Origin: Saccoglossus kowalevskii
Taxonomy: Eukaryota > Hemichordata > Enteropneusta > Harrimaniidae
Direction: 5' to 3'
DNA: 30,961 nucleotides
Assembly (NCBI RefSeq): GCF_000003605.2
Contig: NW_003140823.1
Span: 97,936 to 128,896, forward strand
The notes below the pieces were generated by a model that was given only the letters and a program-made list of their open reading frames with translations, made no database searches and was not told the DNA's origin. This document shows positions 1,036-27,340 of the stretch, piece after piece. How positions within the stretch are numbered: the first letter of the stretch is position 1; each line of letters starts with the position of its first letter. A program made the translations under genes and the position numbers.

Positions 1036-1779
1036 TTCTGCTGATTGTAGATGAAAGCTGATAGTGTTTTTTGTTGATAACATACCAAGGTGTGTCAGTG
1101 GAATTTGTACACATTGCCGTATGATGTCATAGTTAACTGTTTCTGGCAGAAAGTGTTAATCACAAAATGGAGAAATCAATAAGTCTAGAACATTCATGTC
1201 TTTGCAATCAAGTTTTTACTACGTTAATCAGTTGGTTTTATTGTCAGCAGAATGTAAGAATATTAACATGTGTCCCCTTTGGTGTTATTCTTAGTGTGTA
1301 TAAAGGTGATTGACCACAGGGGAGATACTACGTTGCTTCAGATAGCGTTTTTCGCTGCAGGAAATTCCGATCTTTTAATAGTGTTTTATAGCTTTTTGTT
1401 AAAACTAACAAACTTTACTCTTGCTGACATCAATCAAGTCTTCGTAGAGAGTGCAGTTTTTGTATTCCATTCAGTTTGATCACCCGCTCCTCTATCGTCC
1501 AATGCCCCCCTCAGTGATTTTTTGGTTATAATGGCTTTTAGTGCATACGGTAGATTATATAATTTATTGCTCGGTTCAGTACTGAGTAGTTGGAACCCAG
1601 TGGTGAGTTAATGTGTTTCTTGTCATCATTGATGATACATAATTAGAGTTGAATAAGTTCATATTGTCGGATAGTGTTTAGTCTCTGCAACTTGCATCTT
1701 TAACCATATGTCTTCATCTTTCAAGTCAGTTTCTAGAAACAAATAACTTTGATCAAAATATCTTATTTGGTTGCAATTC

Positions 1780-2346
1780 TTTTAGAAAAGATATGCAAAT
1801 GACCATGCATAACATTTCAAATCATTTGCCTAGTTCCACAGAAGACTCTTGTAATTGGCTGTTTCAGAAAGTATATGCAAATGAGTTTGTCATGTGGTAC
1901 ATTTGACCTCATTTGCATAGTTCCACAGAAGATAGTCTCTTGTAATTGGCTGTTTCAGAAAGTATATGCAAATGAGTTTGCCATGTGGTACATCTCAACT
2001 CATTTGCATAGTTCTACTGAAGATAGACTCTCGTAATTGGCTTGTTTCAGAAAGTATATGCAAATGAGCATGCCATGTGGTACATATCACCTCATTTGCA
2101 TAGTTCCACTGAAGATAGACTTTTGTAATTGGCTTGTTTCAGGAAGTATATGCAAATGAGCATGCCATGTGGTACATCTCAACTCATTTGCATAGTTCCA
2201 CTGAAGATAGACTCTTGTAATTGGCTTGTTTCAGAAAGTATATTCAAATGAGCATGCCATGTGGTACATTTCACCTCATTTGCATAGTTCTACTGAAGAT
2301 AGACTCTTGTAATTGGCTTGTTTCAGAAAGTATATGCAAATGAGCA
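1780..2346. repeat. 92-bp satellite with paired octamer (ATGCAAAT) motifs
   Basis: The marker gtttcag recurs at 1861, 1952, 2044, 2136, 2228 and 2320, a period of 91-92 bp. A more degenerate unit precedes it. Most units contain an inverted pair: ATGCAAATGAG, a spacer of about 22 bp, then CTCATTTGCAT (for example 1875-1885 and 1908-1918). The arms contain the POU/Oct octamer. One unit has the octamer changed to ATTCAAAT (about 2240). Confidence 0.93.
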
Positions 2347-3739
2347 TAATATAGTCTCACAAGAAAAATTCCAATTGTAATGATTTTAATGTAAAGGATT
2401 TTAGACAATCATCCCAATAATTATATAATTTGCATGTTAATGTATAAGAAATTCAAAACATTTTAAAGTTTTAATGTTCTTGATGACAATGAGGCTAGTA
2501 TAGATATAATAATGATTTTGGAGAAGAAAATGTCTGGTGACCAGGTTGAAAGAACTTTTGTACCATCTTCTGTACCTACTGCTGAGACATGTAGACTGTC
2601 AAATATTACAATTAATGTACCTGATGTTGGATCAAAAGCTTAATGAAGTGTCAAATTTAATACTTTTAATAGATATTTATACTTACAAAGGTAAAAATGT
2701 CATCGATATAACTTAAGATATCAAGTCTGGGAGATAGACAACCATAGTGTGTCACATAAATCAATAAATAGCATTAGAAGATGCTCTCCAGTGGTTACAT
2801 CATCTGTACAAGCAACTGACTCTTGTATTTGTAGCAATTTTCTCATTTTTCACAAAGTTTTCTTCACATCTACTGTCATACAAAATCTTTCTCTATTTTC
2901 TGACACCTTTGATTTATTTTTTAATGACTGAATTCAAATCCTTCTTTGGTAAATTTAGCAACAATTGTAACCCTGTGATCTTTGTGAGATATCTCTAAAT
3001 GTTTTTTCAGTTGTCATTTTGTGTAAGTTTCCAGCCCTATGATTGCATATGAATAACATGATTACTAAAATAATAGGTCTCAATGAAAACCTATTAGTTT
3101 TAGTTCTTCACAAACATTCTTAAAATGAATAATTTAATAAATTTATATGATTTTGATTGATTGTAAGATAATTTTTATTTTAAAGTTTAATACATGTTAT
3201 GTTACACACAGCAGACAATCAAAATGTTTTACTTTGAATATTTTACATTCCTGATGTAAATCTCAGTTCAATGTGCAATAAAAAAAATCGAGAAGACAAT
3301 CTATGCTTTGCATCCTGATTGAAGCGCCACTAAGGAGAATTGCATCTCTGACTGATTATAGAAATAAAAGATGGCATGGATGATTTATCTCCTCAATCTC
3401 TAGATCAATCTAAGCCTCTAATCCAAAAAGTCTAATCTTCTTCCCAATTGCATATTTTGCCTAATTTTTCATGCTGTTTGGTTTTTACATCCCAATCAAC
3501 AATTTTTAGATCTAGTTGGATATGATTACATTCGTGTCATGTCTTGTATTAAACAGCAAACAAATGTGTGCATTCAGAAGGGTTGTCATGGAAACATCAT
3601 GCTCACTTCGAATTTAAGATGTCTACATTAACTCAAATACAAAACATTTCTTTTTTCAACTACGAATTCATATAGATATTTATAACTTTGATAACTTTCT
3701 CTATATTCCTACTAATGTTTGATTACTTTCATCTTTCAG

Positions 3740-4007
3740 GCCGTACAATCCTCTTGACCCGAGCACACCTGATATGACACAGTTTAGAAGCGTTGCTGAA
3801 TGGCTGGAAAGTATAAAGATGGGGCGATACATTAACGCATTTGCTGAAGCAGGGTACCTGAAATTAGACGATGTTGTGCGATTGATGCTGCATGACTTGC
3901 CAAGGATAGGAATAACATTAGTGGGACACCAAAAGAAAATAATGAACAGTATTCAGGCACTTCGAACGCAAATGGGCAAAGATAACGTGATACCTGTGCT
4001 TGTATAG
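3740..4007 (+). CDS. Eph receptor tyrosine kinase, terminal exon with SAM domain and PDZ-binding tail
   Basis: This is the last coding exon of the Eph receptor. After the split Arg codon comes a short linker (PYNPLDPSTPDM), then a SAM domain. Clear Eph SAM wording includes SVAEWLESIKMGRYINAF, EAGYLKLDDVVRL and ITLVGHQKKIMNSIQ. SAM domains mediate oligomerisation and adaptor binding in Eph signalling. The protein ends in ...VIPVLV followed by TAG at 4005-4007. Val-Leu-Val fits a class II PDZ-binding motif, as in many Eph receptors. The acceptor at 3739/3740 and phase 1 agree exactly with the upstream donor. SAM domain and tail are both encoded in one exon. Confidence 0.96.
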
Positions 4008-4320
4008 CTGCACATACAAGGGTACCCACCGTGCCTTGATAGCGATGACAGTGACACGTGATTATAAATGGCATGTACATGGGTACCTATGTTTGTATGT
4101 ATAGCTACACCATCAGGGGTACCCGCAGTGTACTTGCAAAGTACTGTATATGTATATGCAAATTATATGCAAATGTGACATTTGTTGCGTCACTGGGCAT
4201 GCTCAGATGATAAATTCAATGGATTTCTTCCCATGATTCTTTGCTGAGACAGAGGTCATTGAGCATGTTCAGTTCAGAAAAAACTATAGTTGCACAGTGT
4301 ATGTGGTGTTTTATAATAAA
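4008..4320 (+). other. Probable 3'UTR of the Eph receptor gene with AATAAA signal
   Basis: The sequence after the stop contains several gggtacc words (about 4019-4126). Two ATGCAAAT-like octamers lie near 4156 and 4168. An AATAAA sits at 4315-4320, about 310 bp after the stop, and is the first plausible polyadenylation signal. Cleavage itself cannot be seen. Confidence 0.6.
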
Positions 4321-4603
4321 GATATGGTAGTGATTTAAAAAATACGTAAAAGTAAACTAGTGCTTCTTGTTTTTCATATATATGTTACCTTGACAAGCTG
4401 CCTGCAGATTGTGTATATTACACAAAACTACTCTTCCAAAAACATACAAAAGCAATATGGTGGCTTAAATCCAAAAAAGTGGATTGAAAAAAAAATGTCA
4501 ACAACATTTCCTGTATGTCTGGTAAACATTAGCATTAATTATTTATTTCATCTATTCTAGGTGAATGAATGGCCTTCCGCCACTTTGTTTTTGGGGACAT
4601 TAA

Positions 4604-4760
4604 AGCGGGGGAGTCGTCACCTGCGCATGCGTCAGATGGTCATAGCGTGTCATTATTTACAAACAAGCGTCTGCCAATGAGCCCTTGCTATTTTAGCGTG
4701 TGCTGTTATTGTCGCTTGTGACTCAATTTCCGAGTGTGTGCAGGTGACGATCCTGACGCT
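4604..4760. mobile_element. MITE flanked by TTAA, copy A (piggyBac-like target site)
   Basis: The element is bounded by TTAA at 4600-4603 and 4761-4764. The left end AGCGGGGGAGTCGTCACCTG and the reverse complement of the right end (AGCGTCAGGATCGTCACCTG) form imperfect terminal inverted repeats. No ORF. The TTAA flank suggests a piggyBac-type transposase acting in trans. Two relatives lie at 16227-16341 and about 17449-17575. Confidence 0.75.
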
Positions 4761-4764
4761 TTAA

Positions 4765-7617
4765 AAATGATTGAAATGTCTTGTGTAATCTGACATTATT
4801 CTATTTTCTTCGTAAAAAGAAGCTGTTATGTAAATACTTAAACATGACAAAAAGTGTCTTTGGTCAATATCTTTTCAATTATTTTTAATTTTTATTTATA
4901 CATTGCAGTTTCTAGTTCTGTTCCTTTTATTTTGTTCAAAAATGTCCACTGCCAGAACTAGAGATATTTTATATTTAAAATAATCGCTTTGTGTTCGTTA
5001 AATGTTGCATTGTTTCATGGATAATGCCTTTTAAATGAAATCCCAGCTATTTCTTTTATAATACCTCTGTTTGTTTGCGTTCCTCCTTGTGTACTGAACA
5101 TGGTGTTTCCTAATCATGAAAAAGTTGGGTTAAACCATTATGTAAATAAGGGTATGAAGGGACTAGTTTGGAGGTGCTGATCTGCTTATTTGTGTAAAAT
5201 TAATTAGGTTGAAAATAACACGCATTTTAATTAACATATCAAAATTGTTATAAACAAGAAAAATATAAAAATAAGTCATATGTTAATATATTTAAAAAAA
5301 ACTTGTGTATTTTAGGGAAAAGGCTAAAATAAAAGAGTAGTGCAAAAACTTTTTATTCTGTATAGCTATTTTTAAATTATTAATTTGTTGTTATCCTGGG
5401 AAGAGGTGGTGGAATTCATAACACTAAGTGTTCTATCATTATCTGTAATTTGATACATGATACAACGCTCTGCTGTATTAATATTTTTAATTGTATTTTT
5501 GTAACTGTTTTTTTTTTGGTTGTCATGACATTTTTCTTTATAAAAAAAAATGTATATGAGATTTTAGAAAGTTGACAATTTCATTTACCGTTGACATTGA
5601 ACAGCAGCTCTCATCTGTGTTTTGTTTTTTGAAATGTACTTAACTTTTTATGCTTCTCCCCCTGAATGGTTTTGCACAACATTATTTGCAGTTTGCTAAT
5701 TTGTATTTTTCAATCTATGAGCTAAAATTAGTTTTGTTGCACTAAATTAATAAACACATGGTGATATGTCATGTGATGCGATGTGTCATGTGATATGTCA
5801 CGTCACAGGGCACATATTTATGATAAGGGTATGCAAATAGCTGGAAAAGCCAGCTTAAAAAATAATTTTTCATGTACCTAGGTGCTGTTTGCATATGCTT
5901 AGCTAAATACAGTAACATTTTGCTCCATGTATATTGATATCGCATACTTAATTTTGGTTCAGTAGTTACATGGATTGAAAAATGACAAAAAATGCAGATT
6001 ATAGCCCTTTTATCCAATTTCTCTTATCTTCCAACAAAATGACATTTTTAATGACTTTTTCTTTTATATGATCATGTCTTGTATATAGTGTACATAATGG
6101 AGCATCAGGAGGGAGGGGGTTGTTAGTAAGTAGAACTGTATATAAAGAGCAAAAGGGAGGGGGGAGGGGGAGGGGGGTACTTTTATGTCAGAATACACAG
6201 TGTATTTTGGGAAGCCTAGAACAGATTTTTTTCACTTTAATTTGTCCCACCTATGGAAGTAAATTTACTGGTGCTATTGACTCATTTTTTATGAAAGCAT
6301 GGTTTCCCATCACAAGATAAGCTGATCACCCTTGTAATAATAGTTTAGTCTGGCCTTATGAATATTGTAATGTTCCTGTGGGACATCCCATTGCTGTATA
6401 GGGATGAACAGCCCTGTTTTCAACCCACCTGCACAGAGACTCAATGAATTTAGTGTTGATATCCAGTGTTGTAAATTCCTTTTTAAAACCTTTGGAACTC
6501 ACAATGTGAATGATGGCATGTAATATTCTTTTACAATTGAAAATGTTAAATTTCCTGATTTTGACATGTTTAATCATGTGATGTATATACAGCGTCATTC
6601 TACCTAATTAATAGATTTTACTCAAATTGAAGTTTAATTCTCAACCAGATTAAAATATACGAGAGCAGACTAGGACTAATTAATTACTGCCTTTGTGCTG
6701 CACTTAATTTTAACTGAAAAACTACAATTTTGTTTATAGTTCATTCTCTCTGATTTATCAATCAGTATAATTTCTCACTAAATTATCCTTCATTTGAGTA
6801 CCATATTTGTTTTATTAGAAGTAGACATAAACCAAAACATGCCTATACATATGCAGAGTCAATAAATTAGAACTTCATATAACTATAGACACATTTCTGT
6901 CATGTACTACTAATAGAGCAAATATGGTATAATGAAAACCAAAATTAAAGTGAATACATAATTTGCAATCCAACTATTTTTTTGACACCAGCAACTTCAT
7001 TTTTGGTTGCATGATAGTACCTGCAACCGTTTATTTAAAATTCCTTGAAAGGAACCAAGTTTATACATATTAGACCCTGTAGATATCAAATCCTGTAGAA
7101 ATCAAAATAAACATAATTAAGCAGGAATTTATTGGTAAGAAGTAACACTGGAGTTCAATGAAATGAAAATGAACATCATTGCATGATTTTACAGACTTTT
7201 TTGGCAAGATTATGGCAACCATTTTCTTGTTTTATTTTATTGTAAACACAGCTATAATGTATTGTTCAATGTGTTGGACAGATAGCACTGAACCTTGCAA
7301 GTTGCAAATGTTTTCAATTTGTCAACACACTAGTTTTTGTCCCACCCAAAGTTCGTATTTTTGTTAATATTTTGAAGTGTGTCTGTACAGGACATGCCTT
7401 CCAGCTTGTAAATGGAAATATATACAGAAATAAATTTGTATTTGCTTGAAAAATAAACCCCTTGTTAGACTTGTGTGGTGCATGAGAAGTATATCTGTGT
7501 TGTATGGGAACAGTTGTATTGTGAAAGACTACTATTGTATATGGTGATCATTGATTTGCACGATACTGCCATTTTGAACGAGGATCATTGCTTTTCACAA
7601 TACTGCTATTCAGCAAA
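4765..7617. other. Intergenic sequence, no gene recognised
   Basis: AT-rich sequence between the convergent Eph and MIIP-like genes. Open frames here are short and have neither codon structure nor family motifs. The only local structures noted are CATGTGA/ATGTCA-type repeats at about 5760-5810 and a G-run cluster near 6155. Confidence 0.7.
6155..6177 (+). other. G-run cluster, potential G-quadruplex
   Basis: Four G runs (3, 6, 5 and 6 Gs) are separated by single A residues, with another G-rich stretch just upstream near 6109-6119. This satisfies the usual intramolecular quadruplex pattern with one-base loops. It is isolated in AT-rich sequence. Confidence 0.7.
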
Positions 7618-8035
7618 TCGGGTCAAATTACGCCATTATGATTGGCCTCTAAGGGGTCAAGATACCTACACCATGATCGGCCAATCTTGCCATAGCACAC
7701 CACCATAATTGGCCAATATGATCAAAGTACCTCGCCATGATTGATCAATAGAGTAAAAGCACTTTAGCATGTTTGGCCAATCGAGTCAAGGTACCCCACC
7801 ATGATTGGCCAATCTGGTCATAGTACCCAACTGTGATTGGCCAATGTTGTCAAAGTACCTTGCCATGATTGACCAATCACGTAAAAGCACTTCAGCATGA
7901 TTGGCCAATCGAGTCAAAGTACTGCACCATGATCGGCCATGATTGACCAATGGGGGGAAAAATACCCCCATCATGATTAGCTATTAAGGGATTAAAGTAC
8001 CCTGCCGTGATTGGCCAATGGTGTTAAAGTACTGG
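7618..8035. repeat. Minisatellite with CCATGATTGGCCAAT core, array 1
   Basis: About 12 degenerate units of roughly 31-38 bp each carry a core like CCATGATTGGCCAAT followed by a spacer like gtcaaagtac. ATTGGCCAAT is itself palindromic and contains CCAAT in both directions. A related array lies at 12288-12620. Confidence 0.9.
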
Positions 8036-9770: not shown

Positions 9771-9959
9771 AAAATAATTTTGTAATTTTCAAGCTGTCAA
9801 ACATGTATATGGCAATGAAGATAAAGATTAGCCAAGTTAAGCCAGCCATCTTGTGCAGCTCATTTAAAAAAAAAAAAATTGTAGTAGCCAAGAGATCCTA
9901 GTCAGATTATCTAATTTGGCAAAATATTCTTGGTTTATAAGTCCTCATTGGGACAAAGT

Positions 9960-10560
9960 CAGAATATGGGGACTAATTTCACCTCTCTGCATCTGTATTC
10001 TGGACATGTCTAGGCTGATGACATTCAAACTTCAAACATACATGTTAGAAGAGATATGACAGCCATTTTATTACCAATAAAATCAAGCATTTCTGTCATT
10101 CTGGAACCACATGTCGTGTGTGGATGGATTTTGTTTGAATTTGGTGCATTGGTTTTAATTTAATCTTGATGCACATCACTTTGTTATTCAAAATGATCAT
10201 CTGGCATTCATTTTGTTTGTAAGGCCTATCCTCAAACATACCTGGACGGATCACATTCAAACTTCATACACAACATCCTACATCATATGCATGTATGTTT
10301 AGCTAACTGATCCAAAACAAGATGGCCAAATGGCGGCCATTCTAGTGCTGAAAATTCATCTGAATAAATACTATTCTGTATGTCATTCATGTAAAGAGAA
10401 ATTTCATTCAAACTTGGTATATAGATTGTATTTTAGATTGTGTGTTGGCCATAATCATTGACATCCCTTCACCAATCATGTTACACATATGCACATGCAA
10501 CTATTTCATAATCCAATTACAGATTGCCAAATGACGTCAATTTTATAAGTGCATTATTAG
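9960..10560 (+). mobile_element. Degenerate core-repeat (HINE/pearl-like) element, relative of the 22727-23800 element
   Basis: Several phrases match, in the same order, the intact element at 22727-23800. Examples are tggatggattttgtttgaat (cf. tggacggattttgttcaaat), ttgatgcacatcactt (cf. ttgatgcacgtcattt) and gatggccaaatggcggccat (cf. gatagccaaatggcggccg). No terminal hairpin survives. The divergence marks it as an old copy. Confidence 0.75.
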
Positions 10561-11734: not shown

Positions 11735-14700
11735 CTATTAAAATCAGAGAACATACATACATGAGTGACACGCAATAGTATCCATGACAACCTGGCATTG
11801 AAACATCTAACATTTACAGTTTACATCTATACATGACATAAGTATGGACAAACAAACAAATTCTGATCACCTATTAGAGCAGTAATTGTTATGGTAGATC
11901 TATCTCTCCAATTCCTACCTTGATTTGAATCAAAAACAAAGCTACTGGGGGAGTTTCATTCAGTTACAGACATGACTATAAAAGTGCTCGTTTTCATCCA
12001 GACTTGTTAACACCAGGATAGACCATTAAATTGCAGTTATGATAGAGAGTTGAACATGTAGCCGTGTTGTCTAAAACATGGATACGGTATGGAAGTACAT
12101 GACAGTAAAATCACTCACCGACATAGCAGCTGCTTTACTGGGAACATCCAATGAGTCCTTCAAATCCATACTGTGTGCAGAAGGCATCATAGATGGTTTA
12201 GACGACTCCCATCCTGCAAGGCAATGCTGGGTACAAATAAAGTATAGAAAGAATAATTAGAGTGGTGAGATTAGGGTACACATGTGGTTACACTACCATG
12301 ATTGGTCAATTGGTTAGACTAGCATACCATGATTGGTCAATTGGTTAGACTAGTATACTATGATTGGTCATTTGGTTAGACTAGCATAGTATGATTGGTC
12401 AATTGGTTAGACTAGCATACCATGATTGGTCAATTGATTAGACTAGCATACCATGATTGGTCAATTGGTTAGACTAGCATACTATGATTTGTCAATTTGG
12501 TTATAGACTAGCATACCATGATTGGCCAATTTGTTAGACTAGCATACCATGATTGGTCAATTGGTTAGACTAGCATACCATGATTGGTCAATAGCCTGGA
12601 CTAGCATACCATGATTGGTTAATTATCATACACACTGAATATTGACTGTAGTGTACATCCATAAAATGATAAACTTACCTGTGAAAGAGCATAAGAATCA
12701 GAAGGATCAAAACTTTTTCTTCTGTGCGGCCTGAGACGATAGGGCGACACAAGGGTGCTTCTTGGAATGCTGACTCTGAAGTAAAGAAATATTATAATGT
12801 TAAACCATCTGATTGTCAGACTTCAATAATGTGATGCATATTTCTACCTAACTTATAATCAGACTGTTTTTTAACATGTTTGGGTTAATAATTGAAGATA
12901 CAGAACTATTTTGCTATAACAAATTCCCATCATGCAATATGATGAAAATGTGACGAAAGTACAGGCTTTGATTTCAAGTTTATGGTCACTGGTTTACACA
13001 CCTCATACTACATCTGTAACTACAGGATAACAACCAAATACAGCACGTCTCAGTAAAATGTTGTTCTCTTATACAAGTTCTGATTGGATGCAAATCCTTT
13101 AAAACTTGAACATAATTTGCATATGAAGTTGATCATACTGTTAGCAGCAGATGAAACACAATCAGAGCGCCTCCCATCAGAATGGCAATCATGTTGATTA
13201 CTCTGGATAATGATATAATGGTCTTCTCACCTGATATATGATGGTGAACCCCTTCTATTATCTTGCCGCCGTCCTGTTTTACAGATTGGGCATTCACTGT
13301 CGCCGTCAGTGGTTTTATGAATTGGTACAGCATACAGGCGATTATTCAGTGCATAGCTATGTATACCTACAAATAACATGATAATATGATTGCTTAAATT
13401 AACTTTGCATATTAAAGCGACATTAACTATCTCAAAATAAATTGTTTAAATAAAAAAAAAATCATGATTAAAACTAATATATTTCCCTGATCATAAGCCC
13501 CTCCCTGAGTATAAGCACAAGCGTCCACTTTTAAACGGTAAACGAGTTGATGGCATCCCTGATTATAAGCCCAGGATGTCGATGACATATTAAAATATGC
13601 GTGTAAAAAGAGTGTTTCGTTGCATAAAAATCATGCTTAGTACGGTAGTTTGATTCGTGAAACCTGGTCACTGGACATTGTTTTACTTTCCCTGAATAAT
13701 CCTGTCCATTGAAACTATGATGAATGGGGTGTGAACAAGTAAACTATTCTTCGACGTGATCTGTTGGTGGCTCAGTTTTTAAGGGATAAATCACTATTTT
13801 TTTGTTGAAATCAGTGCTAACAGATCACATTTTAACAACAAAATTACAGTGTCAATAATCAGAAAACTTCTTCAGTATTACACAGCATTTTGATTGGTTC
13901 AAATCGTGCTGAAAAACATCATGGCGGAAAGTGCTTTGCATGGAGAGTTTGTGTATGATTAAAAAACATCCCAAAACAAAGATAATGATAGAGATCTTGT
14001 CTTCAACTGTTTTCCCACAGACCGTACCCATTTTTACACTGTGAAGTCAGAAGATATGTAAATTGTATTGTAATAAAATCATTTAATGTGTGTATTTTTA
14101 TGAACATGTTTGTTTCTTCATTGTGGACTCATTTCACTTTTTTTTCTTCAAAAAGACCTATTATCACCCCGAGTCTGGTATGGTGAACCTAAGATGTTAT
14201 TGGATAATTTTACATTGGTGGTAAAATGGTTACAATGGTAAACCAAAAAAAAAACATCTTTTCTGAGGTAGTTCTAGAGTAAAAGCCCATCCATTATTTT
14301 CCTTGATTTTACACGTTGAGGCACATGCCATTGAGAGTGTCACAGTCCTCTCTGTTCTAGTAGTTTAATACACGACAAATGAAATGTCAGCATATTGTGC
14401 AAAAAAGAGCGAAAATGTTTGTCAATCAAAATGGCGACCAGGCAATCATCTTGAATTGGATTGTGACATAATCAACTTTTATTGATGTGCTAGAACACAA
14501 TCATCTGTGAATCTGTGAATGTAATTGCACAGTGAGAATTCAAGATATATTGCATAGAATCTTGACAAAAATCAACTTGCATCTTTGTGAAATAATACAC
14601 TGCCTTTGTACTGCATAAACTTAGGAATTGTATTCTCAAGTTATAGGCAAAAAATAAGTATTTTTGACGAAAAAATAGGCACCAGTTGGCCAATTTTGAA

Positions 14701-17700
14701 AAAAAAAAAATATTGACTCAGTATGCCAGCAGGTATCATCCATATTTTAAGTTTGAACAGACTAGGCCTACACAACTATTTTGGGGTAAATATGGCTGCC
14801 AATCAGCCGTTTTGTATCTGAACAGAAAGAAAATATGGGGTATATGTATATCATCATGTATCAACCATGTTCTAAGTTGGGAGGAAATCAGTTCATATAC
14901 ACTTCAGAGATACTGCGCCTGCTGGACAGATGGAACACAATCCATAAGCCCCCAGACTGTCAGGGTTAATGATGCATAGAAGCGTTACACATTGCATTTG
15001 ATTTGTCGAGCATGGGGGATAGAGGGGTGTCAGGGTGGGGTCGTCCCTTTTGTTGGTTGTCAATTTTTAGAGGACTCTAGGTAAATAAATTTTCTAATTT
15101 TCACAATTATGACACACTTTGAGGGTTATCAAACCCAATTTTGGAGAAGATACAAAAATGTATATATCGCATTTTTTATTGCATCAATGATGTGTCAAAA
15201 ATAACTATTTCTGGAATCCCTTTGTGTCAGTGATGTGTTAAAATGACTTAGAGGGCACACTGAATAGAACTCTACTCCAAACTATGAGCACTATTGGGTT
15301 ATGTATGCCAGAGAAATCAAGACAGACACATTGTAATTAACAAAAATAAACACATTAACCTGAAAGCAGATATGTATTGTCATTATATTGCGTCGTCTGA
15401 GGACATGTTCAAGCATTATGACTAAGTCAAATGTTACGTCCGGATCAGATCACAAATCATACAATGCATGATAAAAATTGTTGATTCCTATCTCAAAAAT
15501 GGCATATTTATTTTGAATATATTGAGTTCTTGTACAAATAGCAATGAAAAATACTTACATTTGTGTTCATCCTTTTCTTCAACACTAGAAGATGTCATCT
15601 TAGGTTTACTTGTCTTTGGTGATTTTGTAGATTTTGGAGTTACAGGCCTAGAAAATAGAAATAAATATCAAAAACGAAACTGCTCATTCAAAATTGAACT
15701 GTGGAAATGGCAACATAGATATAAAGACAAAACATTGTGTACACTTTTATTAGATAGTAACACTACCGGTATGTCCTCCTTCAGAGTAAAGAAACAAGAG
15801 ATAAACTCACTCTTCAGTGAATGATCTATGTTGACATTCATTGTTGTTGACTCGTCGAAACTCACGAATCTCATCAAAAAACGTCTGCGACTTTTCTGCA
15901 ATCGATTCATCATTTTCAAGAAGACCAGCTATCCAATCATAACCAAGTAGTGGTTGTGCATTTCTTTCATCAAAGTCTGCAGGCAGTCTTGGATCAGGTG
16001 AAATGAAACTGACTTTAGCTTGAGACTAAACACAAATGAAAACAAAAATATTATTATTAAGCAAGCTGGCATTCACTTTTTATTATTTTATATTTTTATT
16101 TATTTATTTCACCAGTATAAAAACAAAATTTGTACATGTTCATGTACAGGACAAAATTGTATTATACTGTGAGGTCCATGGAAATAATCCATTTGGACTA
16201 GTCTAGTCCATGGCCCTTAATATTAAAGGGCGGCAGTCGTCACGCCGCGTCCTGTTCGATATGGGACTCATAGCGACGTATACAACGCGTGTAAAATATA
16301 ATGTTTGTTTACATGAAATTCAACGCGACGATCACCGTGCTTTAAATAATAAATTAAGTCGTCATATAAGTCACAGTAAACAAACAAAAGTAATGAATTA
16401 AATAAATGAGATCAACTAGTAAATAATATAATCAATCATCACAATGAATGAATGAATGAATGAATGAATGGATATTCAAATTATTTAATAAGAGTATTCA
16501 AAATTGCATACTTTAAGATGCAAACACTGATTTAAGCATTCTTTCTGACATTTAATTTACAAAACTAAAATGTTACTCAGTGGGATTAAAGGAATTTTAA
16601 TTTTATTCAGGTTAAATTTTATGGACATGTCTATAATCTTGTGAATATTAATTAAAATCAGTCTATGAAATGTAATTTTTAAGCCCAGTTCATGCTGAAT
16701 GTGTAATTTACACATAGTTACAAAAAATGTTGAAGGATGACATTTTCAATATTCAAGATAGCTGAACATTAGTTTTCATAAGAACACTATAAAATCTGTC
16801 TTCTCTAGTGGCTGTGGAGAAACAAGTTATTATCAAATTTATTCTTTTCTAGTAATTATCAAATTTATTCATTTCTGGTTTTCATCTCTCGCTATTTTTA
16901 ACATAGGAGCAACACATATATTGCATCCTACAATGATAAAGTTTCCAAACAGTTATAAATTGGAATATATTCAACTTGACCCACACAAAACAGACATATT
17001 TATTATTATTATTTTTTTTTATCACTACTTTAGTCTTAGTGTTTTGTATTATTAGTCTAGTTTTGTTTAGTGTAAGTGTAAATATTTTAATTCCCCCTGG
17101 GGAATTTGATGTGTTTAATAAAAGTAAAGTAAGTCAGAGTGGGTGTTGTTTACATTTCATCATTTACGCACTTAAGCACCAATATTGTTGCATATTGCTT
17201 TGGATCAAACAGAGGAACGGAACACACACTCATAACTGCACTTCATATTTGGTGCAATTTGCTTCAAGTATCCTGTAAAGGTTATCAAAGTAAGGTTACT
17301 GCTGGTGTATGCATTCTGTGTATTATCTCTAACATATCTACCCCATTTTGCTATAGCAGGACCCATGATGTTTGAGGGGGCAGCCAACAACCAAATGTAA
17401 ATAATGCATATTCTGACAATGCTGTGAAACAAGGGGTAAACAGACACCTTAAAGCAGGAGAGTCGTCACCTACGCATGTGGCAGATGACAATAACATGTT
17501 GTTGCATCTACCCATGTACTGTTATCGTCACTTAGGCCTCAATTCCTGTGTGCACAGCACACCTCCGCTTTCATTTATCCAATATGTTATTTGTAGAATT
17601 CCAACACTTGCAGTCACCTGTATCTTATTTCTTTCATTCACAACAAATTCATGGTGTTGGTTTACCCTTGGATCCATCGCATTAGTGGGCGTTATTTATA

Positions 17701-21944: not shown

Positions 21945-23964
21945 CTTGAGGTAGAGATGCAGTTTACCTGACAGGTATTTTAATTAGTTAATTAGGAAAC
22001 CAAGATGACCTCCCTTGTTCACAAAACTATATATTTTCGGAAAGCTTATTGTATGAATTTTAAAGTTTTGTTAGTATTATATTTTTATGGACACTGTAGT
22101 TTGAAATATGCACAAAAATGTGCTTTTTTGGTCAAAAGTGATTTAAAAAAAATTAGCTTCTAAACCATGCTTCTGTTTCCTGTCAAAATTGGTTTATGGG
22201 TACATCTGTTTACTATGAAGAAAGCGCCGGCTTGAAAAATGTCTACCAGTTGTCAATTTGTAGGGCAGCAGCTCCAATTTCACTACTTCAAGTTTATGCA
22301 TAAATTAACACCCAGGCTAGTTGTCTGTACGATTGTTGTAGTACTATTCAACTAAAAACAATGCCCCGCCGGCGTTTTGATGATAAACACATTGCTAATC
22401 AGTTGTGAAAATTTCAAAACAAAAGGTCAAAGCGTCTACAAGCTATTTTTTTTTAAAGTTCTGGAATGTGCACTAAAAAGAAGCTGAGATAATTGCTAAT
22501 TTGCATAACAATTCACTCAGTAAGAAGTTTGCTAATGCTCATAATTAAAATGGCTGTAACAGTTCCAAATTGAAATGTATTATCGTTTTGTTAAAAGTTA
22601 AACATAGTGCATAATATGGAGATCCCGTCATTTCTTTTTTTTCACCATGTTTCTTTTTTATTATTTATGTACAGCCTTGCTAAATCTTGCTAAGCATTCA
22701 AAAGAGAGAATGTTTGCACCTGTTATTAGTCCCCGTTCGGACGCAGTCCGAAAACGGGGACTTATGTTTTGCCCTGTGTGCGTCCGTCCGTCCGTCCGTG
22801 CGTCCGTGCTTCCGTGCGTCCGTGCGTCCGTGATCACCTGTATCTCGAACATGCATGGACCGATTGAGTTCAAACTTCACTCATACATCACACATTATAT
22901 GGGACATATGCACATGCATTTTTTTCATGATCCGATTAACGATAGCCGAATAGCGGCCATTTTAAGGCCGAAAATGCATCAAAATCGCACATTTTCACCA
23001 TTCCGGACCCGGATCTCAGTTATGCATGGACGGATTTTGTTCAAATTTGGTACATACATCAAACATAATAGGACCTTGATGCACGTCATTTTTTTTTTTG
23101 GATCGGGTTCGAAATGGCCGACTGGCGGCCATTTTGTTTTAAAGAATTCAGTTCTGGATCCGTATCTGAGACATGCTTGGATTGATCGAGTTCAAACTTC
23201 ACACACACAAGGTACATCATGTCACAAATATGTATGTGCATTTGTTTCATGATCTCATTAACGATAGCCAAATGGCGGCCGCTTTAAGGCCGAAACTGCA
23301 TTGAAATCGCACATTTTCACCATTCCGGACCCGGATCTCAGTTATGCATGGACGGATTTCATTCAAACTTGGTACATACATTAAACATAATAGGACCTTG
23401 ATGCACGTCATTTTTTTTTTTCGGATCAAGTTCGAAATAGCCGACTGGCGGCCATTTTGTTTTAAAGAATTCAGTTCTGGATCCGTATCCGAGACATGCT
23501 TGGATTGATCGAGTTCAAACTTCACACACACAAGATACATCATGTCACAAATATGTATGTGCATTTGTATCATGATCTCATTAACGATAGCCAAATGGCG
23601 GCCGCTTTAAGGCCGAAAATGCATCAAAATCACGTATTTTCACAATTCCAGAACCGGATCTCAGTCATGCATGGATGGATTTTGTTCAGATTTAGCACAA
23701 TGTGTTGTACATATGCAGGTGCATTTCGGTCATGATCTGCTTTGAATGTATATGTCACTCAAATATGAACGGAACGGGGACGTGTCATTGACAATGACTT
23801 GTCTATATTTTAAAATCGTTTTTTGAGTATGTTCCACTATTTGCAATTCTACAAAATTTCAACAGTCTATAGCCAAGACTTTTTGGATAATAAAAAAAAT
23901 AAAAAAAAGAAAAAAAAAAAAATTTCACTCTCAAGTGCCCACGAACCTGCATCTCTACCTTAAG
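21945..23964. mobile_element. 2-kb element bounded by 18-bp inverted repeats, with a nested insertion
   Basis: CTTGAGGTAGAGATGCAG at 21945-21962 and its near-perfect reverse complement at 23947-23964 (17 of 18) bound the unit. No transposase ORF is visible. The core-repeat element at about 22727-23800 sits inside, so the host element would be about 0.95 kb. An inner pair, gcgccggc (about 22226) and gccggcgt (about 22367), may mark another small repeat. No clear target duplication was found. Confidence 0.6.
22727..23800 (+). mobile_element. Core-repeat element 1 (HINE/pearl-like, non-autonomous)
   Basis: The 5' hairpin at 22729-22761 is GTCCCCGTT / AACGGGGAC (9-bp stem), with inner CGGAC / GTCCG, a GCA loop and a two-base bulge. 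A CGTCCG microsatellite follows (22782-22831). The core repeats with a 322-323-bp period (gatagcc at 22941, 23263, 23586), each period made of two related ~161-bp halves. At 23773-23781 the AACGGGGAC arm recurs, followed by the short hairpin GTCATTG-A-CAATGAC and then TTGT. No coding capacity; open frames just follow the repeats. The layout fits Helentron-associated or pearl elements (inference). Confidence 0.78.
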
Positions 23965-24500
23965 CTGAATATAATAGTTAATTTATTACACACCATTTTG
24001 TGGTGACACCAATTGTTACCATGTGCAGTAGAATCTCATTCAGACTAATTTACAACAAAATTGGTTGAATTGTGATTTTTGCATTTGTTCCCCTTTGCCT
24101 GCCCATAATATGATTTATAAATTTACATCAAGGTTTTTGTTTTTGCTGCAATTATATTTTTAGAAACAAATGTTAGTTCAAATTGTAATGGTGTCCATGT
24201 CTCCTGCTGTACGTTTCACCCCAGGAGGCTTTTACACATGTACAATGACTAAAAAAAATAGGTGTGTACCTTCTTTGTGAATATAGGATGAGTTATTGTC
24301 ACCCAAAGTTTATTGACCTGTTTTCTACCACTTTACAGACACTATAAGTTCACATTTGAATATTAAACATTCAACCCTAGTCTGATGAATTTAGTTGTCA
24401 CATTTCATAAGATGACAATATTTCAATTATTCATGTTGTTGAAAAGTATTTGTATGTGAGATGAGCTAGATTCTATAGCCACATCACAACATGTCATTGG
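23965..24500. other. Non-coding AT-rich sequence
   Basis: No gene or defined repeat seen between the nested element and the old core-repeat copy. Confidence 0.6.
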
Positions 24501-24810
24501 TGATTGTGTGTCGTCTCTCATCCACCAACAATTGCATTTTGGACTTCTTTTCGAAAACTACTAGTTTTATTGCTTTGATATGTAGGTATCTTAGGTGGAC
24601 CTCAGTCAGATTTGTTTGTTTCGTGATGATATTTTCTAATTATAATTCTAATTATTAATAATATTTTAAGCAAATATTTTGATCATTTTTGTTATCAATT
24701 TCTTGAAAACTTGCTTAATTTCTTGATACTTGGTATGTAAGTACTATAGGTCAATGTCCTTGTACCAAATCACTGTGAATTAATTTGTATCATCATGAAT
24801 GAATTCAGAT
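24500..24810 (+). mobile_element. Degenerate core-repeat element, relative of the 26173-27340 element
   Basis: About two worn ~155-bp units. The words ggacttcttttcgaaaacta, gctttgatatgtaggta, ggtggacctcagtcagattt and tcgtgatgatatt parallel the intact element (gacttcttcttgaaaacta, gctttgatacttggt, tagacctctctt, tcatgttgatatc). Terminal hairpins are not recognisable. Confidence 0.7.
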
Positions 24811-26172
24811 GTGTCAGAATAATATTCAAAATAGATATCACATGAAATTCAAAGAAAACACAAAAATGTGAAACGATTGCCAATATTCAGATGCACTGAA
24901 GGTAAAATATGTGCCACAATTCATGCAAAATCAACCAATCAAATCTTTCACTTAATGAAAGTCCCAACACCCTAATACAGCTTTATAAATGATCTCACAT
25001 TGCAACCATGAGTAGAAGCATACATGTATTACTCGTAGAAAATTGTGTCCTCTTCTATTGAAAATTTGATTTATTACATATCTGAAATAAATGTTGTCTG
25101 TATTCATAATGCAGCGTAGTAGAGATATTCCTATCGGATCATTATTCTAATTATTACTCTATAGACTCTGTTCAACAGGTATTACAAATGATATTGCTGT
25201 AACAGATGTTTCTAATGTCATACTTTATTTGCTAACAAAATAAAAAGTGTAATCCAAAAATTTATTCACTTGTCAAATTGTTCAAAATCATTCTGTTGAT
25301 CTTTATAGTACAATATGTTATATTAAAATAATTTTGCTGCGATCACAACTTTCAATAATTCTGTATCCAAAAATATCATCAGATAAATTCAACACAGCAT
25401 TTTTTGGGAAAATTTTTTTTTTTAATTTTTATGAAAAATCAAAATAAAAGCACAAATTTAAGGCATCTCCATTGATTTTAAAATAAAAAATTGAGCAGAA
25501 ACTTTTCATTCAATTTATGGGCTTTATTTCGCAAAGCGTATTTGAAACATATCAAAATACCAATGCCATAATGCACCAGTACAATCCCAGAGATTGTGTA
25601 GCCACCATTAACCTTGTCACTACCAGTTCCCTCTTTTCATCACAAATTCACAAAATAGTCCTGTTTCATAGTGTGCACTTTCATTTAGACGTTTGGGACA
25701 ATTTCCAAAAAATATTACACTGCAGAAAAATTTGGTCAAAAAAGTCTAGTGGTGAAAAGGTTAAAGATTTGGTAAAAAGTGAAAAAATGTACAAATTTGT
25801 GAACACCAATTTTTGATTGTGGGAATTTTAGATAAACAGTAGACACAGCTACCAAGTAAAAATGATGAAAAATCAATACATTACAAATTTTTAATATTTT
25901 GCTTAAAGCGAAAGGTTTCATCAAATCATTGACAATAAGCAAAATCTATTTCCATGGAGATGACTTTACGATCTTCTCATAGCATTAATTAAACTCTGAT
26001 CTGGTTGCCATTTTGAATCAACAATTGGCCAAAATATATACAAATGAGGTTTATAATTCAAAAGCTATTTTGTGTTTTCTAAATTTGTTCTTTTGTTTGT
26101 CAAATGAACAGTAATGCAGCCAAATTCCAGAAAATACTGGTGTGAAAAGTATGAGCTCCACCATCCATTTTT
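24811..26172. other. Non-coding AT-rich sequence
   Basis: No exon or RNA gene recognised. A 99-codon open frame at 25517-25816 has no family motif, no plausible splice context tying it to the upstream gene, and AT-driven composition. Confidence 0.6.
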
Positions 26173-27340
26173 AGCTCCGCTGTCGACTTTGTCGAGCGGA
26201 GCTTATCATATGAGTGATTGTCCGCCGTCGTCCGTGTCAATGTTTTACTTTTTTGACTTCTTCTTGAAAACTACAAGCCTGAATGCTTTGATACTTGGTG
26301 TATATGTACCTTGGGTAGACCTCTCTTAGGTTTGTTCATTTCATGTTGATATCTTCAATTCTCTAATTTTGGTGAATATTTTTGTCATTTTTGGTAAAAA
26401 GTGATATTTTCGACTTCTTGTTAAAAACCGCAAGTGCAATTGCTTTGATATTACATATATAGGTACTACATGTGAACCTCTCTCAGATTTGTTCATTTTG
26501 TAATGATATCTTTAATTCTCTAATTTTGGTGAATATTTTTATCATTTTTAGTAAAAAGTGATATTTTCGACTTCTTGTTAAAAACCGCAAGTCCAATTGC
26601 TTTGATACTACATATATAGGTACTACATGTGGACCTTTTTCAGATTTGTTCATTTCGTGATGATATCTTCAATTCTCTAATTTTGGTGAATATTTTTGTA
26701 ATTTTTGGTAAAAAGTGATATTTTCGACTTCTTGTTAAAAACCAATAGTCTGATTGCTTTGATATTACATATATAGGTACTACATGTGGACCTCTCTCAG
26801 ATTTGTTCATTTTGTGATGGTATCTTCAATTCTCTAATTTTGGTGAATATTTTTGTAATTTTTGGTAAAAAGTGATATTTTCGACTTCTTGTTAAAAACC
26901 AAAAGTTCAATTGCTTTGATATTACATATTTAGATACTACATGATGTAGACCTTTCTCAGATTTGTTCATTTCGTGATGATATCTTCGATTCTATAATTT
27001 TGGTGAATATTTTTGTCATTTTTGGTAAAAAATGATATTTTCGACTTCTTGTAAAAAAACAATAGTCTGATTGCTTTGATATTACATATATAGGTACTAC
27101 ATGTGGACCTCTCTCAGATTTGTTCATTTTGTGATGATATCTTCAATTCTCTAATTTTGGTGAATATTTTTGTCATTTTTGGTAATAAGTGATATTTTCG
27201 ACTTCTTGTTAAAAACTGTAAGTCTGATTGCTTTGATACTATACATATTGTTCATTTTCTAATGATGTCTTCAGTTCTTTAATTGAAATGTGCATTGCTA
27301 ACAGCGGAGCTATCTCAGCCGATAGACTGCTTGTTTTTAA
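26173..27340 (+). mobile_element. Core-repeat element 2 (HINE/pearl-like, non-autonomous)
   Basis: The 5' hairpin at 26173-26203 is AGCTCCGCT / AGCGGAGCT (9-bp stem), inner CGAC / GTCG, loop TTT, two-base bulge. A short cgccgtcgtccgtg segment follows. The core has about seven units; gtgatattttcgacttc recurs at 26401, 26558, 26715, 26872, ~27032 (atgatatt variant) and 27189, a 157-bp period with one of 160. At 27303-27311 the AGCGGAGCT arm recurs, then the small hairpin CTATC...GATAG and CTTGTTTTT. No coding capacity. Confidence 0.8.

Follow-up and report, generated by a model that had tools for sequence, protein, structure and literature searches.

The window analysed here, a stretch of 30,961 nucleotides from the hemichordate Saccoglossus kowalevskii (contig NW_003140823.1, positions 97,936 to 128,896; assembly GCF_000003605.2, 572 Mb in 4830 contigs), carries on the same strand, 2.4 kb apart, two short repeats that we call element A (22727..23802, + strand, 1076 bp) and element B (26172..27334, + strand, 1163 bp). 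We conclude, with a probability of roughly 0.94, that they represent two families of non-autonomous Helitron2/Helentron-type rolling-circle transposons, that is, Helentron-associated interspersed elements (HINEs) of the kind of DINE-1, pearl and Cg_HINE. As this layout has already been published for HINE/DINE-1 and Helitron2, A and B add new members to a known kind; what is fresh is the repeated insertion of one family exactly at the 3' ends of others, while the rest is ordinary in kind and well supported. The initial annotation, made from the letters of the window, had described two elements of unrelated sequence sharing one precise architecture with a duplicated hairpin arm. That observation was partly confirmed, holding with corrections, and the interpretation attached to it (pearl/HINE-like mobilisation, with each family co-evolved with its own recognition factor) was partly supported.

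Ends, target sites and anatomy of elements A and B

A first look at the assembly yielded 3499 A and 4043 B candidates. Forty per family were scored and 28 loci per family fetched, with the copy in the window counted among each 28. Ends were counted in the window and 64 loci (10 of 74 loci were excluded, two as duplicates of the window and eight as Rep loci). For A, these hold 30 5' ends and 28 3' ends, and for B, 29 and 31. The aligned copies placed the ends of both families at TTNT^TAG...CTTGT^, where ^ marks the element boundary. All elements begin with TAG, and the base to their left was T in 59/59 cases; the left tetramer was TTNT in 27/30 A and 27/29 B (54/59 in all, background 3.9%) and TNNT in 59/59 (background 10.2%), with A preferring TTAT or TTTT and B TTTT. 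CTTGT formed the 3' end in 28/28 A and 29/31 B. A 5' end was paired with its own 3' end in 28/30 A and 22/29 B, so that the ends and hairpins claimed for the two families proved consistent across copies. Among full copies, 20 of the 28 of A and 12 of the 22 of B had all three arms exact, and the median divergence from the consensus was 2.4% for 27 A copies and 3.3% for the 13 B copies shorter than 1250 bp. Truncated copies also occurred (e.g. L007 lacks the A 5' hairpin, and L059 has a cut B hairpin). Genome-wide, on both strands, we counted 890 exact A-type 5' ends (TAGTCCCCGTTCGGAC, a motif that may also occur in related families such as family C described below), 935 B 5' hairpins with perfect 9-bp arms and 1620 B 3' ends (AGCCGANAGGCTGCTTGT), and the reversed-pattern control gave 0 in each case.

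Empty sites were sought for 50 full copies, 28 of A and 22 of B, by joining 60 bases of flank from either side and comparing the joined sequences with the fetched DNA, which is small. Junction-spanning alignments (41) came from 6/50 flank pairs, among them 31 from L048, six from L002 and one from the window; clean empty sites were accepted for three of the 50, all of them A. The empty site of the window's A lies in L006:2852-2966 (95.7% identical over 115 bases) and reads CCTGTTAT^CTATATTT, which places the target tetranucleotide TTAT at 22723..22726 (+). The A copy of L002 sits inside a tandem repeat, and its empty site CAGTTAT^TTGCTGC is present in six sister repeats; that of L048 sits inside a B element, whose empty site reads GAGCTTAT^CATATGAG. 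The apparent empty sites of L003 and L038 were rejected because the 3' end of a C element in the flank had aligned to A's own 3' end, and that of L005 was rejected as weak (73.6% over 72 bases); the other 47 pairs gave no accepted site in the small amount of DNA searched. No target duplication was seen, save for a single T that is assignable to neither side. For B, insertions into B itself show a left junction ACTTTT^TAG (L062, L064) and a right junction CTTGT^TTGACTTC (L065, L074), and the window carries the uninterrupted counterpart ACTTTTTTGACTTC.

These ends bear on an alternative explanation, namely that the repeats are satellite DNA flanked by hairpins by chance, with the arrays and not the ends as the unit. 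In L065 and L074 (contigs C2876 and C2586), the fetched 10 kb are indeed taken up by about 62 B-core repeats each, among which B ends lie embedded. On the other side, all but one of the 28 full A copies consist of a single unit of 1031-1096 bp with common ends, and the empty sites refute a satellite origin for dispersed A; for B, the refutation rests on the shared ends. We therefore regard this explanation as extremely improbable, and the arrays of L065 and L074 are apparently a satellite grown from a HINE core.

With the ends fixed, the start of A at 22727 stood as first annotated, whereas its end moved from 23800 to 23802, and the bounds of B moved from 26173 to 26172 and from 27340 to 27334. 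After the initial T, A has a 5' subterminal inverted repeat (subTIR) AGTCCCCGTT (22728..22737), an inner stem and loop CGGAC-GCA-GTCCG with an AA bulge on the 3' strand (22738..22752) and an internal inverted repeat (IR) AACGGGGACT complementary to the 5' subTIR (22753..22762). Folding with DNA parameters gave a 9-bp outer stem, the AA bulge, a 6-bp inner stem and a GCA loop, with 10 + 5 bp equally possible. CTTAT follows at 22761-22765, then a CGTC/CGTGCGTC microsatellite (22781..22832) and a core (22840..23682) in which a unit of about 161 bp (alignment score 113, against a best of 36 among 200 shuffles) lies within a 323-bp higher-order repeat of 2.6 copies. AACGGGGAC, the outer 3' arm of the 5' hairpin at 22753, recurs exactly and only once, as the 3' subTIR at 23773..23781; it is followed by the 3' hairpin GTCATT-GAC-AATGAC (23784..23798), each base pair of which was kept in 27 or 28 of 28 copies, and by the terminal TTGT (23799..23802), all on the + strand. 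Two mechanically called open reading frames (201 and 115 aa) overlap A.

Element B follows the same order, likewise on the + strand: a 5' subTIR AGCTCCGCT (26173..26181), a GT bulge on the 5' strand with the inner stem CGAC/GTCG and a TTT loop (26182..26194), an internal IR AGCGGAGCT (26195..26203) and CTTAT (26202-26206). A short GTCC/GTC microsatellite linker (26220..26235), read directly and variable among copies, leads to a core of 5.9 copies of a 157-bp repeat (26318..27248), which, with the unit found in A, bears out the tandem cores of about 157-161 bp first annotated. AGCGGAGCT recurs exactly and only once, as the 3' subTIR at 27303..27311, before the 3' hairpin (27316..27329) and the terminal CTTGT (27330..27334). 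No open reading frame of at least 90 aa lies inside B. Both 5' hairpins and the single recurrence of their outer 3' arms are thus real, and their shapes are alike (9-bp outer stem, two-base bulge, three-base loop), but the claimed identity of shape was too strict: the bulges lie on opposite strands, and the inner stems, folded in the same way, measure 6 (or 5) bp in A and 4 bp (CGAC/GTCG) in B. The small hairpin annotated before TTGT was likewise correct for A but not for B, where the family form is CAGCC-GANA-GGCTG, which adjoins CTTGT directly and has all five pairs formed in 27/30 copies. The CTATC/GATAG pairing visible in the window's B was intact in 15/30 copies, with its variable column central; the window's own copy is broken at the family hairpin, having A at 27326 where the consensus has G.

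The two families were first described as unrelated in sequence, and indeed no similarity between A and B could be aligned (best blastn E 1.9). However, both 5' hairpins directly precede CTTAT and both elements terminate in CTTGT, so that their termini are not wholly unrelated; the CTTAT after both 5' hairpins echoes the CTTGT after both 3' hairpins. We further found a third family, C, with three 3' ends (L003, L038, L049) and one full copy (L038). Its arms are nearly those of A and its core is related to A's (68% over 561 bases), whereas its 3' hairpin GCCATGCATGGC, directly preceding TTGT, differs. As C keeps A's arm while the sequence of the 3' hairpin changes, the shared plan is arm, hairpin and (C)TTGT. 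A scanner for hairpins with a recurring arm gave 10 matches in the window, eight in one 92-bp tandem array plus A and B, compared to a mean of 0.23 and a maximum of 1 in 30 dinucleotide shuffles of the window, which puts the combination beyond chance. The array that triggers the scanner lies at 1812-2347, and its units have inverted arms ATGCAAATG / CATTTGCAT. A stricter scan of the window and the 64 loci, DNA fetched mostly with A and B, found no arm types besides those of A and B; B was also matched in shifted registers, and the reversed control gave 0.

Class assignment and known relatives

The resemblance to pearl/HINE elements proposed earlier was borne out: both elements have subTIRs with an internal 3' copy, a complementary IR, a 3' palindrome, a microsatellite with central tandem repeats and a T-rich target with no recognisable duplication (apart from the single-T ambiguity). 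They also show the features of Helitron2, with a 5' asymmetric terminal inverted repeat (ATIR) in the 5' hairpin, a 3' ATIR immediately before the 3' hairpin, and a TTTT or T-rich tetranucleotide target. In contrast, canonical Helitrons (Helitron1) have 5' TC and 3' CTRR ends and insert between A and T, which does not agree with TAG...CTTGT and a left T in 59/59. An alternative explanation is that A and B are cut-and-paste miniature inverted-repeat transposable elements (MITEs) that have inverted repeats in subterminal position and duplicate TT or T of the target. They are short and numerous, have near-terminal inverted repeats and a T-rich target, and DINE-1 was formerly put in that class (PMC2374699). 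However, transposons of that class carry a terminal inverted repeat at either end and duplicate their target, whereas the ends of A and B are asymmetric, with the 5' arm terminal and the 3' arm 21-23 bases inside, the empty sites show no duplication beyond the undecidable single T, and composites occur that combine two 5' ends with a single 3' end (B in L062 and L064). We thus consider a MITE origin very unlikely.

In the Pacific oyster, 11 Cg_HINE elements were described in one genome, their partner likewise not being linked, with a layout of 5' subTIR, complementary IR, GTCY-type microsatellite, central repeats, 3' subTIR and palindrome (PMC7492417). A and B share with them a GTCY/GTCC microsatellite and an oligo-T target without duplication; the IR of Cg_HINE lies 1-12 bp from the subTIR, whereas the spacer of A and B has 13-15 bases and forms a short stem-loop of its own (PMC7492417). 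Drosophila DINE-1 has a partial IR beside the 5' subTIR and a 3' hairpin, with five subTIR types in eleven species and three in D. willistoni (PMC2374699); it resembles A and B in its subTIRs, IR, GTCY microsatellite, central repeats, 3' hairpin and several subTIR types, and differs in having 13-bp subTIRs of another sequence and an IR that is only partial (PMC2374699, PMC4067079). Helitron2 elements have ATIRs of 8-15 bp, the 5' one making the 5' hairpin and the 3' one lying directly upstream of the 3' hairpin, start with T and insert after TTTT without duplication (PMC3627910). A and B share this ATIR-hairpin plan, the initial T and the lack of duplication, but their target is TTNT (A also using TTAT), and they are non-autonomous with tandem cores (PMC3627910). 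The Fusarium elements FoHeli1/2 likewise have hairpins at both ends, an ATIR and, as a further likeness, a TNAT target, but they are fungal, code for a transposase and end in ATTTT (PMC5148889). For Fusarium Helitron2, self-insertion was offered as the explanation of elements in which several 5' ends accompany a single 3' end, and the B composites of L062 and L064 look like these (PMC5148889).

The initial annotation had held the conserved shape and the role of the repeated arm to be little described. This was not upheld, since PMC2374699, PMC4067079, PMC7492417 and PMC3627910 give the anatomy and a role for the repeated arm is proposed in the last of these. By analogy with the class, a Helentron Rep/helicase would nick at TTNT^T beside the 5' hairpin and displace one strand, stop at the 3' arm and hairpin, cut after CTTGT and attach the freed strand behind TTNT. 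Between the 5' arm, its complement and its 3' copy, two mutually exclusive pairings would be possible: the local 5' hairpin or a pairing of the 5' and 3' ends. The latter corresponds to the suggestion made for Helitron2 that pairing between the 5' and 3' ATIRs may destroy the 5' hairpin and so set the end point (PMC3627910). For Helraiser, the 3' hairpin was described as the terminator, and circles with precisely joined ends form (PMC4778049). As the anatomy of A and B repeats the published Helitron2/HINE plan in another genome, it is mainly useful for annotation.

Autonomous partner and other repeats

Helentron partners have the same ends as their HINEs, and families are defined by the subTIR (PMC4067079); a partner of A or B could carry the ends TAGTCCCCGTT or TAGCTCCGCT. 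A search with PF14214 gave 8 matches on 7 contigs (11 candidates), and the surroundings of all seven were read. A second search, with the Rep of L017, gave 26 matches on 11 contigs (36 candidates), of which C1479 was read in part; the reading left aside seven contigs, another place on C1873 and the greater part of C1479. In both searches the Rep-like sequences were few and mostly interrupted by stops. L017/L025 (C2261:3149374-3152127, - strand) holds a Rep-like open frame of 977 codons with DUF6570 and Helitron_like_N domains and the Rep motif EFQQCGSPHTH; no terminal repeats were recognised around it. C1479:6400-12785 (- strand, partly in L075/L076) shows Rep matches followed by PIF1 helicase and endonuclease segments with frame breaks, some domain scores being below the curated cut-off, which shows that a Helentron-type gene exists in this genome. 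Its 5' side runs off the contig; on its 3' side, 4 kb were read and no A or B arm motif was found. On C3364, the 3' ends of an A-like element and of a B element lie some 6 and 8 kb, respectively, upstream of the Rep; we read these as separate HINEs.

Some results weigh against the HINE assignment. The loci read (the seven PF14214 contigs, on three of which, C2261, C3364 and C2109, runs of N lie near the gene, and 4.9 kb of C1479) held no autonomous element with A or B ends, as no A or B arms were paired as the ends of a gene-holding element. The copies were chosen by score (40/3499 and 40/4043), which biases the sample towards intact ones. None of the 22 B flank pairs gave an empty site in the fetched DNA, so that the empty-site check proposed earlier succeeded for A, including the window's copy, but not for B; the halves of the B-in-B junctions stem from different loci, and the evidence that B makes no duplication is indirect.

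The window also holds further repeats. A degenerate relative of the A/C type at 9935-10545 (+ strand) has a hairpin AAGTCCTCAT...ATATGGGGACT and core pieces that are 67-74% alike, with no 3' end recognised by reading; a lone diverged B-core monomer (67-73% alike) lies between A and B at 24527-24705 (+ strand), and a short C-type core remnant (69% over 91 bases) at 14789-14878 (- strand). Two tandem arrays with units of about 31-32 bp (7656-7939 and 12294-12624), 4.4 kb apart, have CCATGATTGGYCAAT in common.

Insertion of A behind resident 3' ends

Genome-wide, 26 A-type elements start directly after CTTGT, as counted with a pattern that omits places with C at its first position. The 13 bases preceding each junction were scored for mismatches against the B, C and A-like 3' hairpins, and 13/26 junctions were found behind a HINE 3' hairpin with at most two mismatches (seven B-type, five C-type and one A-like), the remaining 13 having at least seven mismatches to all three types. 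The seven B-type junctions are all different (two exact, two with one mismatch and three with two), compared to about 0.001 random matches to the B end expected. Given how many TTGT sites the window holds and how often A uses TTGT (4/30), only 0.018-0.065 cases of A behind a B 3' end were expected for 1620 to 6000 B ends, against the seven observed. In the fetched DNA, 4/59 A or B 5' ends lie within 300 bases after a HINE 3' end, never more than 4 bases away (two cases of C to A, one of A to B and one of B to B), and 0/59 follow a HINE 3' end in the opposite orientation. The occurrence of A exactly behind differing B ends suggests that 3' termini may be hot targets across families; that a resident 3' hairpin with CTTGT is preferred as a landing site, even by a family whose arms are unrelated, is supported but not proven. 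Distantly related bat and maize Helitrons can directly adjoin one another (PMC4067079), and a narrow literature search, in the accessible parts of the papers, did not find the 3'-end enrichment or a common rule for target and terminus stated.

Several counts tell in the other direction. With exact B ends only, two junctions remain instead of seven (0.018 expected, P 0.00015). The five C-to-A junctions are identical and thus perhaps derive from one spread composite. A T-rich site inside B, the foot of the 5' hairpin GAGCTTAT, received one A where 0.03-0.10 were expected, which makes it a weak control. B itself rarely uses CTTGT: of five exact CTTGT^B junctions, at best one lies behind a diverged A-like end (4/13 mismatched). 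The idea that the foot of the B 5' hairpin is equally hot was considered but not adopted: of four A insertions at GAGCTTAT, one, at C3323 (L048), falls within a genuine B 5' hairpin, which exceeds expectation but is little proof; another, on C2272, follows a different hairpin-like stretch.

Each family may depend on a Helentron of its own, with a Rep that recognises the arm sequence of that family, as the initial annotation implied, and we give this a little less than an even chance. The arms differ between A and B yet are kept within families; A and C have nearly the same arm, whereas the 3' hairpin and much of the core are not shared; families are defined in print by their subTIR type (PMC4067079); and the target bias differs between A (TTAT/TTTT) and B (TTTT). 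However, A lies behind the B 3' hairpin far more often than expected, and a partner was found for neither A nor B at the loci read. Alternatively, and more tentatively, the HINE 3' terminus might be hot because a Rep reads one rule at the donor TTNT, the CTTGT end and the target TTNT; a resident 3' end, recognised and nicked by the same Rep, would then serve as acceptor. If true, this would explain why A stands exactly behind B, C and A-like 3' hairpins at 13 of the 26 CTTGT^A junctions, and families with unrelated arms would share one machinery. The position of A behind B's 3' hairpin hints at such sharing and argues mildly against one private factor per family.

The base-exact enrichment of one family behind the 3' hairpins of another could matter more widely: in any genome rich in HINEs, it offers a countable test of whether targets are shared between families by Helentron Reps, and it provides a simple source of composites and of tandem arrays that feed satellite DNA.

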